A DNA stretch of 64,000 bases from assembly GCF_000515395.1 (NCBI RefSeq), contig NZ_KI911782.1, positions 2,168,606-2,232,605 of the forward strand, written 5' to 3'. Positions 452 to 6,115 of this stretch are shown here, in pieces. This DNA is from Jiangella gansuensis DSM 44835. Lineage in GTDB: Bacteria; Actinomycetota; Actinomycetes; Jiangellales; Jiangellaceae. The notes beneath the pieces were generated by a model. That model had not been told where the DNA came from, did not search any database, and saw only the letters and a list, made by a program, of their open reading frames with translations. The position numbers were made by a program, and so were the translations under genes. Position 1 is the first letter of the stretch; every line of letters begins with the position of its first letter.

Positions 452-2785
452 TCAGGACCGGCGGCGGGCCAGCGACAGGGCGGACGCGCGCGCCCGCTCG
501 CCGGCGGTGTCCATCCAGTCGAACGCGTCCAGGACCGCCTGATTGGCCGCGGCCGCGGCGTCGCGCAGCCGCGACGGCACCAGGAACGCGCCCACTCGCC
601 GGCCGGCCGACGCCGAGCGGGAGATGGTACGGCGCACTGCGGCGGTGTCGGCACGCAGCGACTCGACCGGCTGCGACTGGCGTGCGTACCGGGCCCGCTC
701 GATCGCGCCCACCAGGTGGTCCAGCAGGACACGGTCCTCAGGGCCCAGCGACGCCGACGCGGCCACGGATCGACCCACCGCGCGCGGCGTGGCGGCCGGA
801 TCCCAGGACAGCCCGGCGTCACGGACGGTCTCGCGCAGATCCTCCCAGGCCGCCTCCGCGGTCAAAGCGGCGTCGTGGCCGGCCTGCCGCCAACGCCGTT
901 CCCGGCCGAACCGGGCATACAGCGACGGGGTCGAGACCAGCGCGGCCAGGGCCAGCACTCCGAGCATCACCAGCGGCCATTGCGACGGCGGCTCGTCCCC
1001 GGGCGCGGTGACGCCCCCGGCGGTGTCGTCCTCGCGGGGGACCTGCGGGGCCTGCATCGACGGCTGTGCGGACGGCTGCGACGGGTCGGGCGCCGGGGCG
1101 TTGCTGCCGCCCGTGTTGGGCACCACGGTCCAGTCCGGCGCGGCGCCGGAACGGGAGGCCGGCGTGGGCTCGAAGCGCACCCAGCCGAGGCCCTCGAAGT
1201 ACAGCTCCGGCCAGGCGTGCATGTCGTGGGCACGGACCAGCCAGGTGGCCTCGCCCTGGTAGTCGCCCGGGGTGAAGCCGACGGCCACCCGCGACGGGAT
1301 GCCGAGGTAGCGGGCCATGATGGCCATAGTGGCGGCGAACTGCTCGCAGTAGCCGCGCCGCTCGGTGAGGAAGTCCTCGAGCGCGGTGGACGAGTGGCCC
1401 GGCTGCGACTCGATGTCGTAGACGAACCCGCCGGTCGGGCCGCGGAACCAGTCCTGCAGCGCGGCGGCGCGGCTGAAGTCGTCCGTCGCTCCCGCGGTGA
1501 CCTCGTCGGCGAGTTCGGTGACCATCTGGGGGAGTTCCTCGGGCAGTTCGAGCGAGGACTCGACGTCGCTGCTCGGTTCGCCGGCCGCCCGCAGCGCTTC
1601 GACGGTGGGTGCGAGCGCCAGGCTGCGGGCGGTGTACCGGCGAGCCTGCACGTTGCCGCTGTTGGTGACGACGTCCAGCGTCTCGGCGTGGTAGCGCCAG
1701 TCGCCGTCGATCTCGATGGACTGCGTGGGGTAGGGCAGCGGCAGCCAGCTGGAGCTGAGGTTCTGGGTGATCCGGATGTCGTAGTCGACGACGGGATACT
1801 CGGCGTCCTGCAGTCCTTGCGGCCACGGCAGCCCGCTGTCGACGGAGTCGGGGACCGGCCGGTCGGACGTCTTCCACTCGTCGCCGTCGAAGACGTCGAG
1901 CGTCACGATGCGGATGTGCGAGGGTTCGTCGGCGGAGCTGCGATACCGCAGCACTTCGACGTTCTCGCGACGTTGCAGGTTGCGCTGGAGGTCGACGATG
2001 GGGTTGTCGGTGCGGATGGTCTGTCCGCCGCCGCCTCCAGCACCCCGGCCGGGACCGAGTAGGCCCTCGGTGAGCACCGGCGCCAGGCCGGGTACCGCGA
2101 CCGCGACGGCCAGCGCGACCGCGCCGACACGGCGGCCGTTGCGGGCCAGCGAGTCGGTCTCGGGGACGCCGCTGTGCGCGGCCGACGGGCTGGCCGAGCG
2201 GCCCCAGCCGGCCACCCTGGTGCGGCCCTCGGACACGAGCAACGCCAGGAACCCGGCGGCCGGCGGGATGAACCAGTACCACTCGAGGCCGGTGACCAGG
2301 ACCGAAGCCGTGACGGCGTAGCAGGCGGCGAGCGGGAAGCCGGCCAGCGGCACCCTGCGCAACCAGACGGCGACCGCGTCGACGAGCAACGCGACCAGCC
2401 CGGCGCCACCGACCAGCATGAGCGTGATGCCGCGCGGCACCGGGACCGGCGCGACGTAGGTGTTGGTGACGTCGACGCCCTCGTTGAACACGTCGATCAG
2501 CCGGGTGGCCCATTCGGTTGTCGGGATGAAGCCGAGCAGCGCGACGTCGCTGGCGACCAGGACGCCCAGCCACAGCACCAGGACCGCCAGCTGCGCGACG
2601 GGCACCAGCGCGCCCGGCACGTTGAGCTTGCGCAGGACGTAACCGGTGCCGGCGACGAAGGCGACGGCGATCGCCGCGGAGAGGATCCAGTCGCGGGTGA
2701 CCGTGAGTTCGAACAGCGGCAGTACCGACAGTACCGATGCGACCGCGGCGACGGTCGTGAGGCGTCCGTGCGTGCTCATCGGCAT
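452..2785 (-). CDS. TgpA-type membrane transglutaminase-like protein
   Basis: 777 residues. The N-terminal third carries several hydrophobic membrane segments. The extracytoplasmic middle holds a transglutaminase-like core with Cys480 in RRGYCEQF and His523 in DMHAWPEL, followed by FEPTP near the third member of the triad. A Pro/Ser-rich linker, another membrane helix and a DUF4129-like cytoplasmic tail follow. This is the DUF3488/TgpA architecture. The start could be Met1 (2785) or the Met at 2779. It lies 3 bases after the DUF58 gene in a moxR-DUF58-tgpA operon, a widespread arrangement. The family is thought to act on cell-envelope proteins; the actual substrate is unknown. Confidence 0.88.
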   Translation of the reverse strand: MPMSTHGRLTTVAAVASVLSVLPLFELTVTRDWILSAAIAVAFVAGTGYVLRKLNVPGALVPVAQLAVLVLWLGVLVASDVALLGFIPTTEWATRLIDVFNEGVDVTNTYVAPVPVPRGITLMLVGGAGLVALLVDAVAVWLRRVPLAGFPLAACYAVTASVLVTGLEWYWFIPPAAGFLALLVSEGRTRVAGWGRSASPSAAHSGVPETDSLARNGRRVGAVALAVAVAVPGLAPVLTEGLLGPGRGAGGGGGQTIRTDNPIVDLQRNLQRRENVEVLRYRSSADEPSHIRIVTLDVFDGDEWKTSDRPVPDSVDSGLPWPQGLQDAEYPVVDYDIRITQNLSSSWLPLPYPTQSIEIDGDWRYHAETLDVVTNSGNVQARRYTARSLALAPTVEALRAAGEPSSDVESSLELPEELPQMVTELADEVTAGATDDFSRAAALQDWFRGPTGGFVYDIESQPGHSSTALEDFLTERRGYCEQFAATMAIMARYLGIPSRVAVGFTPGDYQGEATWLVRAHDMHAWPELYFEGLGWVRFEPTPASRSGAAPDWTVVPNTGGSNAPAPDPSQPSAQPSMQAPQVPREDDTAGGVTAPGDEPPSQWPLVMLGVLALAALVSTPSLYARFGRERRWRQAGHDAALTAEAAWEDLRETVRDAGLSWDPAATPRAVGRSVAASASLGPEDRVLLDHLVGAIERARYARQSQPVESLRADTAAVRRTISRSASAGRRVGAFLVPSRLRDAAAAANQAVLDAFDWMDTAGERARASALSLARRRS

Positions 2786-2788
2786 CGG

Positions 2789-4108
2789 TCATGCACCTTC
2801 CCGGGCCGGGCGGCCCTGCATCGCGGGCGCGGCCGGCCCGGCGGCTGGACGCTGCACGCCCAACTGCTCCCACAGGGCGGCGAGGTGCTCGCCGCGGTGC
2901 GCCACGATGACGTTCCAGCCGGCGCCGCGCAGCACCTGCACGCTCTCGGTCAGCCGTACCTGTTCGCGGCTGTGCGCGCCGAGCGACGTCCACGACATGA
3001 CGTCGAGGACGACGGCGAGCGCCGCGGTGCTGCCGTGCCGCAGGGCCGCCACCACTCGTGCTTCCTGCTCGCTGAGCCGGCCGAACACGCCGACCAGCAT
3101 CCCGGTGGCGGACTCGGCTCCGCTGAGCAGGTCGGGCCAGCGCCCGACGGAGGCGTCGCGTTGCGGCTGCACCACCGCCAGGGCGTCCAGGAGCGAGACC
3201 CTGGCGTCGCCGGGGCCGCTGGCGGGGTCGTGCCAGGACGTGGAGACGGCACTGCCGTGGTCGGTGGCCAACCGTACCGCGTAGCCGCGCTCGGCCAGGT
3301 GAACGCCGATGGAGGCGGCCGCGGTGACGCTCCACTCCAGCGAGGAGTCGATGCCCTCGCCGGTGTGCCCGGCGGTGCGGGTGTCGAGCAGGATGGTGGC
3401 TCGGCTCTGCCACGGCTGCTCCTCGCGCCGGACCATGAGATCGCCGTGGTGGGCGGTGGCCCGCCAGTGCACCCGGCGCATGTCGTCGCCGGTGCGGTAG
3501 GCGCGGATGGTGGCGTCCTCCTCACCGGCGGCGGCCATGGCGCGCGGCCGGCTCTCGCCGCTGCCGCTCCACTCGCCGCCCAGCCGGGCGGTGGGCAGCC
3601 GGTGCACGGTCGGGGTGACGATCAACGTGCCGACGTCGCTGAAGGCGCGTTTGAGCTCGACCATGCCGAACGGGTCGGTGACCCGGACGGTCAGCGGCCC
3701 CACCGTGTACCTGCCGCGCACGACGGGGTCGATGGCGTACGTGACGTCGCGGCGGAACCGGGACCAGACGTGGTCGAGCACGAACCGGGGCCGGGCGCCG
3801 AGCGTGAAGGGGATGCTGTCCTCGACCAGCAGCACGCCGGTGGGGATACGGGCGGAGTTGGCCAGCTCGAGGTGGACCGTGGCGCGCTCGCCGACCGACA
3901 CCCGAGGCGGCTCGATCGACCGCGACGCGGCCAGCCGTACCCGGCTGCGCAGTGCGACCACCAGGCTGATGGCAGGGATCGCCACCAGCAGGATGCCTGC
4001 GCGCAGGACGTCGCGCTGGCCGGCCAGGACCGCGGCGATGACGGCACCGCCGCCCACGGCCAGGAACGCCCAGCCGCGGCGGGTCAGTCCGGACAGCGCA
4101 TCGCTCAC
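2789..4108 (-). CDS. DUF58 domain protein
   Basis: 439 residues with two hydrophobic segments at about residues 8-50, then a beta-rich region and the hallmark DUF58 motif YRTGDDMRRVHWRATA with a following RREE. The C-terminal half resembles a von Willebrand A-like fold, with LLDTR in the first strand. DUF58 proteins are usually encoded with a MoxR ATPase and a transglutaminase-like membrane protein, exactly as here, and are suspected to form a chaperone-like system for envelope proteins. The gene follows moxR by 16 bases and precedes the transglutaminase gene by 3, so all three are probably cotranscribed. Confidence 0.88.
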   Translation of the reverse strand: MSDALSGLTRRGWAFLAVGGGAVIAAVLAGQRDVLRAGILLVAIPAISLVVALRSRVRLAASRSIEPPRVSVGERATVHLELANSARIPTGVLLVEDSIPFTLGARPRFVLDHVWSRFRRDVTYAIDPVVRGRYTVGPLTVRVTDPFGMVELKRAFSDVGTLIVTPTVHRLPTARLGGEWSGSGESRPRAMAAAGEEDATIRAYRTGDDMRRVHWRATAHHGDLMVRREEQPWQSRATILLDTRTAGHTGEGIDSSLEWSVTAAASIGVHLAERGYAVRLATDHGSAVSTSWHDPASGPGDARVSLLDALAVVQPQRDASVGRWPDLLSGAESATGMLVGVFGRLSEQEARVVAALRHGSTAALAVVLDVMSWTSLGAHSREQVRLTESVQVLRGAGWNVIVAHRGEHLAALWEQLGVQRPAAGPAAPAMQGRPAREGA

Positions 4109-4124: not shown

Positions 4125-5132
4125 TCAACGTGGGTCTGGCTGCGGAACGCGCTGGACGAGGTCGTCGACGATGCCCGAGGCGTCGCGACGTCCGATCTGC
4201 GCCTCGGCGGTGGGTAGCAGCCGGTGGCTGAGCACCGGTGCGGCCAGCACCTGGAGGTCGTCGGGCAGGACGTACTCGCGGCCGTCCAGCCCCGCCCAGG
4301 CCTTGGCGGCGCGGATGAGATGGAGGGTGGCCCGGGGCGATGCGCCCAGCCTCAGCTCCGGCGAGGTGCGGGTGGCGCTGGTGAGTGCGACCGCGTACTC
4401 CTTGATGGCGTCGGCGACGTAGACGCCGCGGACCAGCCGGACGAGCTTGTGCACGTGCGCGGCGTCGGTGACCGGCTCGAGCGGGTCCAGCGCGCTGCCG
4501 GCTCCGTGGGTGTCGATCATCTCGATCTCGTCGCGGGTGGAGGGGTACCCCATGGACAGCCGCATCATGAAGCGGTCGCGCTGGGCCTCCGGCAGCGGGT
4601 AGGTGCCCTCCATCTCGATGGGATTCTGGGTGGCGACCACCATGAACGGGGCCTCGAGCTGGTAGGTGGTGCCGTCGACCGTGACCTGCCGCTCCTCCAT
4701 GCACTCCAGGAGGGCGGACTGCGTCTTCGGGGAGGCGCGGTTGATCTCGTCGCCGACGACGACGTTCGCGAAGACGCCGCCGGGCTTGAACTCGAACTCC
4801 CGGGTCTCCTGATTGAACACGGAGACGCCGGTGACGTCGCTGGGCATCAGGTCGGGCGTGAACTGGATTCGGCGAACGGTGCAGTCGACGGCGCGGGCGA
4901 TGGACTTGGCCAGCATCGTCTTGCCGACTCCTGGAACGTCCTCGATGAGGATGTGCCCCTCGGCGAGCAGGACGGTCAGCGCCAGCTTGATGACCTCGGG
5001 CTTGCCTTCGACGACGGAACCGATGGCCGACTGGATGCGGGCCGCGGTGTCGGCGAGGTCGGTCAGGGCAAGTTCCGACACGCGGTCGGACGCCGGCTGT
5101 TGATGGCTGCCCTGCATCAACGAATCAGGCAC
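4125..5132 (-). CDS. MoxR-family AAA+ ATPase
   Basis: 335 residues. The Walker A motif is in EDVPGVGKTMLAKS at about residue 70, the Walker B region reads GDEINRASPKTQSALLECMEE, and sensor 1 lies in VATQNP. This is the MoxR branch of AAA+ ATPases, which act as chaperones that mature or activate partner proteins, often ones with von Willebrand A folds such as DUF58 proteins. The start is a GTG at 5132, preceded on the minus strand by a strong GGAGGAG ribosome site (5135-5141). It is the first gene of the moxR-DUF58-transglutaminase operon and diverges from mraZ. Confidence 0.92.
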   Translation of the reverse strand: MPDSLMQGSHQQPASDRVSELALTDLADTAARIQSAIGSVVEGKPEVIKLALTVLLAEGHILIEDVPGVGKTMLAKSIARAVDCTVRRIQFTPDLMPSDVTGVSVFNQETREFEFKPGGVFANVVVGDEINRASPKTQSALLECMEERQVTVDGTTYQLEAPFMVVATQNPIEMEGTYPLPEAQRDRFMMRLSMGYPSTRDEIEMIDTHGAGSALDPLEPVTDAAHVHKLVRLVRGVYVADAIKEYAVALTSATRTSPELRLGASPRATLHLIRAAKAWAGLDGREYVLPDDLQVLAAPVLSHRLLPTAEAQIGRRDASGIVDDLVQRVPQPDPR

Positions 5133-5368
5133 GTCTCCTCCATTCGATCCCCGACCTCGTCGGCGTACGTGCCTCGGCCGATCGCGGAATTCCCGCTACC
5201 AGTCTCGCAGTGTGCGACGTGCGGCTCGTCGCTCAGGTTCCGATCAGCTTCGGGACTTCCTCGTATACCCGCAGAGCCTATGTCCACTCCGCTTCCCACG
5301 CATCAGTCATTCCGGACATACCGATAGGCCGCCCGGTGATCGTCCGGCGCCTCCGGGTTGGTGCCGGA

Positions 5369-5465
5369 TGGGGGGAGGTGGGGCGCGGTGGGGGCGATTG
5401 TGGTTGCAAGTGGGGGAGAGTGGAGTAGAGTGGCGGGCATTGGAGGAAGAGTGGTCCGAAGTGGC
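5369..5465 (+). promoter_or_regulatory. mraZ promoter overlapped by a phased TGG (MraZ-type) operator array
   Basis: TGG trinucleotides start at 5369, 5379, 5389, 5401, 5411, 5421, 5431, 5441, 5452 and 5462, almost all exactly 10 or 11 bases apart. The first three and the fifth read TGGGG. MraZ from E. coli is known to bind TGGGN repeats separated by 5 bases, one helical turn per repeat, upstream of its own operon. A plausible promoter lies inside the array: -35 TTGCAA at 5404-5409, 16-base spacer, -10 TAGAGT at 5426-5431. MraZ bound here would cover RNA polymerase and repress the dcw operon. Confidence 0.7.
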
Positions 5466-5492
5466 CGTCATCGGGGACCAGATGACGGCCAC
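5461..5492 (+). promoter_or_regulatory. Perfect 12-bp hairpin in the mraZ 5' leader
   Basis: GTGGCCGTCATC (5461-5472) and GATGACGGCCAC (5481-5492) are perfect reverse complements around the loop GGGGACCA. The hairpin sits downstream of the likely promoter and 11 bases before the mraZ ribosome site, so it would be in the mRNA leader. A long uninterrupted stem like this could be an RNase III substrate or affect mraZ translation; both are inferences. Confidence 0.55.
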
Positions 5493-5515
5493 GGCGGACA
5501 GCGGGGAGGTGGGCC

Positions 5516-5947
5516 GTGTTCCTCGGCACCCACACGCCCCGGCTGGACGACAAAGGGCGACTCATCCTTCCGGCGAAGTTCCGGGACGAACTGGCGGAGG
5601 GCGTCGTGATCACACGAGGACAGGAACGCTGTCTCTACGTGTGGCCGCACGCGGAGTTCCTCCGGTTCACCGAGCAGTTGCGGGCCGCGCCCATCACGCA
5701 CAAGGGCACCCGCGACTTCGCCCGGATGCTGGCAGCGGGGGCCAGCGACGAGGTCCCGGACAAGCAGGGCCGCATCACCATCCCGACGGGTCTGCGGACC
5801 TACGCCGGGCTGGAACGCGAGTGCACCGTCGTCGGTGCGATGACCCGCGTGGAGATCTGGTCCGAGCAGGCCTGGGAGACGTACCAGGCAGAGAAGGAAC
5901 CGATGTTCGCCGACATCTCCGAGGAGGTGCTGCCCGGCATCTTCTGA
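5516..5947 (+). CDS. mraZ: MraZ, transcriptional regulator of the dcw cluster
   Basis: 143 residues, the normal MraZ length, made of two SpoVT/AbrB-like halves. DDKGRL near residue 12 and DKQGRITIP near residue 85 are the two copies of the family signature. MraZ forms ring-shaped oligomers and binds direct repeats in its own promoter. The start is a GTG with GGGGAGG 6 bases upstream. It is the first gene of the division and cell-wall cluster and follows the phased operator array at 5369-5465, which argues for autoregulation. The 168 bases to rsmH contain a modest inverted repeat, GTCACTTG (5992-5999) with CAAGTGAC (6018-6025). Confidence 0.97.
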
Positions 5948-6115
5948 CCCGCCGACGCGTGGCACGCACGGTGAGGTCTCCGGCCGCTCACGTCACTTGA
6001 CACACCTTCCCCGGTGGCAAGTGACCGAGCTGAGCTGCCCGAGCGGGCGGGGACCTGACCGTACGAGCCGCAAGGGAAGCGGAACGAGCGACCGATTCGA
6101 GGACAAGACGCGGGG

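Follow-up and report, generated by a model that had tools for sequence, protein, structure and literature searches.

A helically phased TGG array at the mraZ promoter of Jiangella gansuensis, a probable two-block MraZ operator

Few bacterial transcription factors are as conserved as MraZ, a ring-forming protein that controls the operon for the division septum. In Escherichia coli, the MraZ box is said to consist of three repeats and reportedly serves autorepression, a finding credited to Eraso et al. in 2014. Upstream of mraZ in the actinobacterium Jiangella gansuensis DSM 44835, the trinucleotide TGG recurs about once per helical turn over a far longer stretch, raising the questions of whether this row is an MraZ operator and what its additional copies may do.

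Simpler operators have been described in several bacteria. Eraso et al. 2014 is cited in the consulted portion of PMC8475190. According to the consulted portions of two other papers, the mycoplasma MraZ binds 7 + 3-base direct repeats, (AAAGTGKN3)3, as an octamer (PMC5282649), and the Burkholderia dcw promoter carries four 7 + 3 repeats (PMC7761207). The same portions differ on stoichiometry, with one octamer per motif in the former and each repeat regarded as the target of an octamer in the latter.

The window (the whole 64,000-nucleotide stretch of the J. gansuensis genome that was analyzed) harbors forward-strand TGG starts at 5359, 5369, 5379, 5389, 5401, 5411, 5421, 5431, 5441, 5452, and 5462 (n = 11), with successive steps of 10, 10, 10, 12, 10, 10, 10, 10, 11, and 10 bases. 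A sequence-only reading had described at least ten copies at 10–11-base steps with a single 12-base step, and the count bears this out: 5369–5465 holds ten TGG, the eleventh lies outside it at 5359, the sole 12-base step is 5389 to 5401, and the sole 11-base step is 5441 to 5452. The longest chain in 5000 dinucleotide-preserving shuffles of the G-rich region 5340–5470 was 5, and none reached 11; thus, local G-richness alone is insufficient as an explanation, and chance arising from it was ruled out. Shuffling the whole window in the same manner (n = 100, steps of 10–12) gave a maximum chain of 4 versus the real 11, and elsewhere in the window the longest TGG chain on either strand is 3. Across the genome (5,585,780 bases, one contig), TGG-N7-TGG-N7-TGG-N7-TGG has three matches, all within the mraZ array, and its backward control matches once on the forward and once on the reverse strand. 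The pattern GTGGNGN4GTGGNGN4GTGG has a single genomic match, again the mraZ array, and its control pattern has none.

The array has the hallmarks of an MraZ box, namely same-strand direct repeats whose GTG(G) core recurs every 10 bp, a location in the mraZ promoter region heading the dcw cluster, and a genome that encodes MraZ. The usual copy number of 3–4 repeats per operator is exceeded by the 11-TGG chain and matched by its inner tetrad alone. Since copy number is inessential to the definition of an MraZ box, the 11-TGG array counts as a variant. The coordinates of its parts and of the surrounding features are collected in Table 1.

Table 1. Features of the mraZ upstream region and its surroundings in the window
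Feature	Position	Strand	Support
Two genes after moxR	2789-4108, 452-2785	-	no NCBIfam match
Divergent moxR-like AAA ATPase gene	4125-5132	-	sequence reading; NCBIfam AAA matches all below cut-off
Outermost TGG (5359)	5358..5367	+	in the window only; absent from the 8 other full-length Jiangella
Distal block of three (A/G)TGGGG units spaced 10 bp apart (T at 5369, 5379, 5389)	5368..5397	+	kept in nine Jiangella
Two extra bases making the 12-bp junction between distal and promoter blocks	5398..5399	+	nine Jiangella, gap-free alignment
TGG (5401) immediately before the probable -35 TTGCAA (5404-5409)	5400..5409	+	12/12 Jiangella
Core MraZ-box tetrad GTGGGG/GTGGAG/GTGGCG/TTGGAG (T at 5411, 5421, 5431, 5441)	5410..5445	+	12/12 Jiangella
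Probable -10 TAGAGT, overlapping tetrad copies 2 and 3	5426..5431	+	TANAGT in 12/12 Jiangella
GTGGTCCG (T at 5452), 11 bp beyond the tetrad; probable leader; also outer hairpin stem	5451..5458	+	12/12 Jiangella
Leader hairpin (5 + 12 pairs) enclosing the last TGG (5462)	5454..5499	+	fold, conservation
Shine-Dalgarno-like GGGGAGG	5503..5509	+	sequence
mraZ, GTG start	5516..5947	+	TIGR00242 above cut-off; two PF02381 repeats

The gene downstream is a true mraZ, as had been assumed when the array was first described: its product scores 132.9 bits against TIGR00242 (cut-off 98.35), a family whose name itself says repressor, and its two PF02381 repeats are the only PF02381 in the genome. It is presumed to be the source of the protein that binds the array. 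Close matches to this MraZ (95–98%) come from Jiangella and Haloactinopolyspora, and solved MraZ structures include 1n0e and its set as well as 9qlr, 9sx6, 9qlg, and their partners. The genes follow in the order mraZ (5516), rsmH (6116), ftsL (7120), and an FtsI-type PBP gene (7542). Between mraZ and rsmH, at 5958–6076 on the forward strand, lies a full-length match to the mraW RNA (RF01746; 43.8 bits, E 9.7e-8) that falls short of the gathering score of 50. At gathering thresholds, Rfam places no element over the array in the window; a weak match to sR30 at 5440–5500 under relaxed thresholds (E 0.84) was taken as chance. Among 220 mraZ loci (219 fetched plus the window, same-genome repeats included), moxR is divergent in 120, not found in 84, and co-directional in none, with 16 being too short to tell.

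The array had also been said to span the likely -35 and -10 elements, and this placement holds for a probable -35 (TTGCAA) and a probable -10 (TAGAGT), 16 bp apart. No promoter is called over the array by a strict sigma-70 consensus scan (0 hits), which counts against the two-block reading described below and leaves the assignment resting on conservation. All but one of the 24 columns of TGGTTGCAAG and TGGAGTANAGTGG are identical in 12/12 Jiangella (the window and eleven others). The TTGCAA/TAGAGT-type layout, with TTGAC, recurs across other families, in which GTGGRGTANNGTGG is the usual -10 form. The class-wide form can be written as TTGAC-N-GTGGRG-N4-GTGGRG-TANN-GTGGNG-N4-GTGGRG, such that the tetrad starts one base past the -35 element and the -10 element overlaps copies 2 and 3.

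Four is the most frequent copy number of this chain. Outside Jiangellaceae lie 184 of the 220 loci; sorted by their longest chain, 80 have 4 copies, 40 have 5, 36 have 3, 17 have 2, 6 have 6, 2 have 7, 1 has 8, and 2 have a single copy. The 8-copy chain (L106) was rejected as an unrelated tandem repeat, leaving 7 (L046 and L182) as the longest genuine chains outside the family. The core pattern TGGNGN4GTGGNGTANNGTGG has exactly one match in each of 30/30 mraZ-positive genomes, hand-picked from sets of 161 and 56 and mostly known beforehand to carry the box, and no match in 0/16 genomes lacking a convincing mraZ, of which 14 come from one family and genus (f19/g24). Wherever the position of mraZ is known in the 30 genomes, the match sits there. 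The one-to-one relationship agrees with MraZ as the ligand; the joint absence could also mean that promoter and gene have gone together as one stretch of DNA. In f19/g24, 14 genomes (G039, G059, and 12 more) have no mraZ match, and G173 has one weak match (E 5.9e-4).

Upstream of the promoter, conservation narrows to Jiangella. Three assemblies (L025, L026, and L033) end inside the array and were excluded from the distal-block counts, which use the nine with full upstream sequence. In phase, GGGG is found at 26/27 distal positions and TGG at 21/27; at shifts of 1–4 bases, GGGG is found at 0–2/27. The mean information is 1.74 bits for the TGGGG columns, 1.40 for the other columns of the distal block, and 0.72 just upstream. 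The TGG itself is kept in 7/9, 9/9, and 5/9 species for the three distal copies, and the loss of T from the third copy in all but 5/9 counts against a reading of the array as two blocks of MraZ sites.

The 12-bp junction is identical in 9/9 full-length Jiangella. At 10.5 bp per turn, it sets the distal block within ~35 degrees of tetrad copy 1, an offset in the same range as the tetrad's own. Loss of the phase in close relatives had been named in advance as a refutation of the sequence-only reading; alignment finds the phase kept in Jiangella. The TGG chain is 11 in the window, 7–10 in the eleven other Jiangella (three cut by contig ends), and 5–8 in other Jiangellaceae. The contigs of 3/12 Jiangella assemblies (starts L062, L064, and L066; matches from bases 122, 133, and 136) break inside the array, perhaps owing to its G-rich or hairpin character. 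The outermost TGG at 5359 is probably chance or a new copy of one species.

Phased distal copies are also found in other families. Of the 184 loci outside Jiangellaceae, 174 have a recognizable register and 130 bases upstream, and 85 non-redundant promoters are left after removing those at least 50% alike. With the tetrad as origin, TGG occurs at -10, the slot of the 5401 copy, in 32/85, and in the in-phase slots at approximately -21, -31, -41, and -52 in 23, 20, 24, and 14 of 85, compared with 2, 2, 3, and 5 of 85 in out-of-phase slots of equal width. From -55 to -12, TGG is periodic with R of 0.53 at a best period of 10.1 bp (null mean 0.16, 0/1000 randomizations), a result that serves as a guide rather than an exact probability because the 50% filter removes kinship only partly. 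No phasing of TGG is seen from -110 to -60 in the 85 promoters, where 571/1000 randomizations match the observed value, a limit that also counts against the two-block reading.

The slot means fall on a line whose slope is 10.41 bp per step and whose intercept is 0.06. Within the tetrad, TGG pairs 8–12 bp apart are exactly 10 bp apart in 203/203 cases (copies 2 and 3 by selection). The slope and intercept of the line imply that, measured from the tetrad, the distal copies are spaced by the helical repeat of unbound DNA. At least two of the three distal slots are filled in 17/85 promoters, twelve of which carry family labels spread over ten families. All three are empty in 38/85, which counts against the two-block reading, as does the loose distal-to-distal spacing in other families (8–13 bp), which shows that strict 10-bp blocks are not general.

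The last two TGG copies lie on the downstream side. In Phytoactinopolyspora, GTGGCC stands at the position equivalent to the 5452 copy and the hairpin is absent. The leader hairpin folds at -35.9 kcal/mol (z -5.9 versus mononucleotide shuffles), and its consensus fold is common to 10 aligned Jiangella and shortened in two (L022 and L034). Among the 10, the outer stem is unchanged, several one-sided G-C/G-U or A-U/G-U changes occur, and a two-sided change is found in one pair only. The TGG at 5462 is present in 10/12 Jiangella.

The array is therefore not a uniform row of ten copies, as the sequence-only reading had it, and is better described as mixed parts of differing conservation: the class-wide tetrad (5411–5441), the TGG at the -35 element (5401), the Jiangella distal block (5369–5389), the Jiangella-wide copy at 5452, the hairpin copy at 5462, and the one-species copy at 5359. 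The same reading took the gradation from TGGGG to TGGAG/TGGCC for ordered occupancy. The best-kept copies are those of the promoter tetrad in the middle, and since A or G at the tetrad's fourth position is ordinary across the class, the proposed gradient finds no support. Its suggestion of multiple rings stands as a possibility, as does a longer wrap, the array exceeding the usual four copies (the mode of the 184 loci outside Jiangellaceae).

On balance, the array is probably a two-block MraZ auto-operator in which the tetrad blocks the promoter and the distal block assists from the same face of the DNA. The array, its phase, its conservation, its uniqueness in the genome, and its kin across the class are observed directly; we infer that MraZ is the ligand, that it also binds the distal block as an auxiliary operator, and that the sign is repression. 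One MraZ ring would bind the tetrad, which lies over the -10 element, between the -35 element and the probable start (expected near 5438). Because the tetrad spans this interval, a ring bound there would cover the promoter and exclude RNA polymerase, turning off the mraZ-rsmH-ftsL-ftsI operon, including mraZ itself. The distal block, set on the same B-DNA face as the tetrad by the 12-bp junction, may then be bound cooperatively, either by a second ring beside the first or by the rest of one ring, for tighter repression. Docking of a second ring and extended contact of one ring would both raise the occupancy of the tetrad.

A further conserved element lies upstream of the tetrad in many families. 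It resembles TGACCTGCG and is accompanied by a CCAC pair in the opposite strand sense; 50/68 distinct hits place it at -55 to -57 from the tetrad within a searched range of -130 to -30. In L042, L076, L120, and L205, for example, a CCAC pair ~10 bp apart occurs with TGACCTGCGG at -55 to -57, which could be an MraZ site in inverted orientation or the target of a different regulator. In 7/9 full-length Jiangella, a TGACCTGCG-like element is found at -89 to -114, a position consistent with an insertion between the element and the tetrad that is at least about as long as the distal block (32 bp). A regular-expression search of the window for a TGACCTGCG/TGACCTG-like element gives no match, and the window retains just two CCAC, 12 bp apart (5284 and 5296).

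Opposite-strand chains of four GTGG-like copies with steps of 10, 11, and 11 occur upstream of mraZ in five distinct loci of unrelated lineages (L004, L005 = L070, L110, L167, and L206); the reverse chain of L123 was set aside as an unrelated tandem repeat. A reverse-oriented array serving as the divergent moxR promoter was not adopted, as the distance from the TGACCTG-like element to moxR varies (sd 94 bp over 32 loci with the element at -55 to -58, a selection from which the small sd to the tetrad follows).

Three other explanations leave MraZ binding to the tetrad alone or assign the distal block to something else. In one, which we consider unlikely, the runs of G in the distal block give rise to, or modulate, a G-quadruplex that acts on transcription as a DNA structure. 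The distal G-run is indeed kept better (26/27) than the T (21/27), the three GGGG together with the GGGGG of tetrad copy 1 make a long-loop quadruplex motif in 9/9 Jiangella, 3/12 assemblies break inside the array, and a quadruplex upstream of mraZ with reporter effects is described for Staphylococcus aureus in the consulted part of PMC11796246. However, a strict motif (four G-runs of at least 3, loops of at most 7) is absent from the window and found in 1/9 Jiangella and 6/85 other promoters, and such a structure needs neither the 10-bp phase nor the phase-restoring 12-bp step, both of which are kept. The guanine-rich tracts of S. aureus, in the same consulted part, lie at the mraZ promoter as those of the array do here, but they are located downstream of it, whereas those of Jiangella are 10-bp-phased and mostly without a strict motif.

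It is improbable that the distal block is a recent, functionless tandem duplication of a 10-bp G-rich unit, leaving only the tetrad to matter. Tandem Repeats Finder reports a period-10 unit at 5369–5393 (2.5 copies, 86% matches), and the outermost copy at 5359 is confined to one species; a functionless repeat would nonetheless have to account for phased GGGG kept in nine species next to upstream sequence that has drifted (1.74 versus 0.72 bits), and for phased distal copies recurring in other families. The idea that the distal block is the site of a different regulator, MtrA for instance, placed in helical phase with the promoter, and only resembles the MraZ motif is given little credence. In Dietzia, the mraZ promoter is a target of MtrA (PMC9602371, as far as the consulted part goes), and the conserved TGACCTGCG element with its CCAC pair (50/68) shows that further inputs reach mraZ promoters. 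Yet the distal units share the GTGGRG core and the strand of the tetrad, and TGACCTGCG is a separate sequence farther upstream that the regular-expression search does not find in the window.

The proposed two-block operator resembles the MraZ boxes of E. coli, mycoplasma, and Burkholderia in its GTGG-like direct repeats on one strand at a 10-bp period, in its mraZ/dcw promoter location, and in the adjacent MraZ gene. Unlike those boxes of 3–4 repeats, the Jiangella chain has 7–11 TGG in two blocks with a 12-bp junction. Its tetrad lies between the -35 element and the start, over the -10 element, whereas the Burkholderia and E. coli repeats are located downstream of -10 according to the consulted part of PMC7761207. 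Other actinobacterial mraZ promoters (L040, L031, L182, L058, and others) share the tetrad, and L031 has the 10/12/10 layout of Jiangella, but most have fewer distal copies at looser spacing. Searches of an open-licence full-text collection, which lacks most subscription papers, turned up no account of an actinobacterial MraZ operator with more than four repeats or of its phase, which is weak evidence of novelty.

A wider reading is tentative and, taken whole, doubtful: actinobacterial mraZ promoters may be two-block operators whose design follows the geometry of the MraZ ring, with a phase-restoring junction. The tetrad would then keep a strict pitch of 10.0 bp, and the tetrad-to-distal distance would follow the ~10.4 bp of free B-DNA. 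The 8–9 kept sites of Jiangella might wrap an octameric or nonameric ring once or dock two rings on one face, forming a small nucleosome-like repression complex, and the oppositely oriented CCAC element fixed at approximately -57 in many families might be part of this complex, supplying the second half of a DNA bend or loop.

The ratio of rings to repeats is described differently in the consulted parts of PMC5282649 and PMC7761207. Actinobacterial mraZ promoters supply a natural series of operators, from 3–4 to 8–11 phased copies with a phase-correcting junction, on which stoichiometry, wrapping, and cooperativity could be tested directly, and the series predicts graded strengths of dcw repression across actinobacteria. 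In Jiangella, a row of about twice the usual length probably lets MraZ shut off its own operon more tightly.
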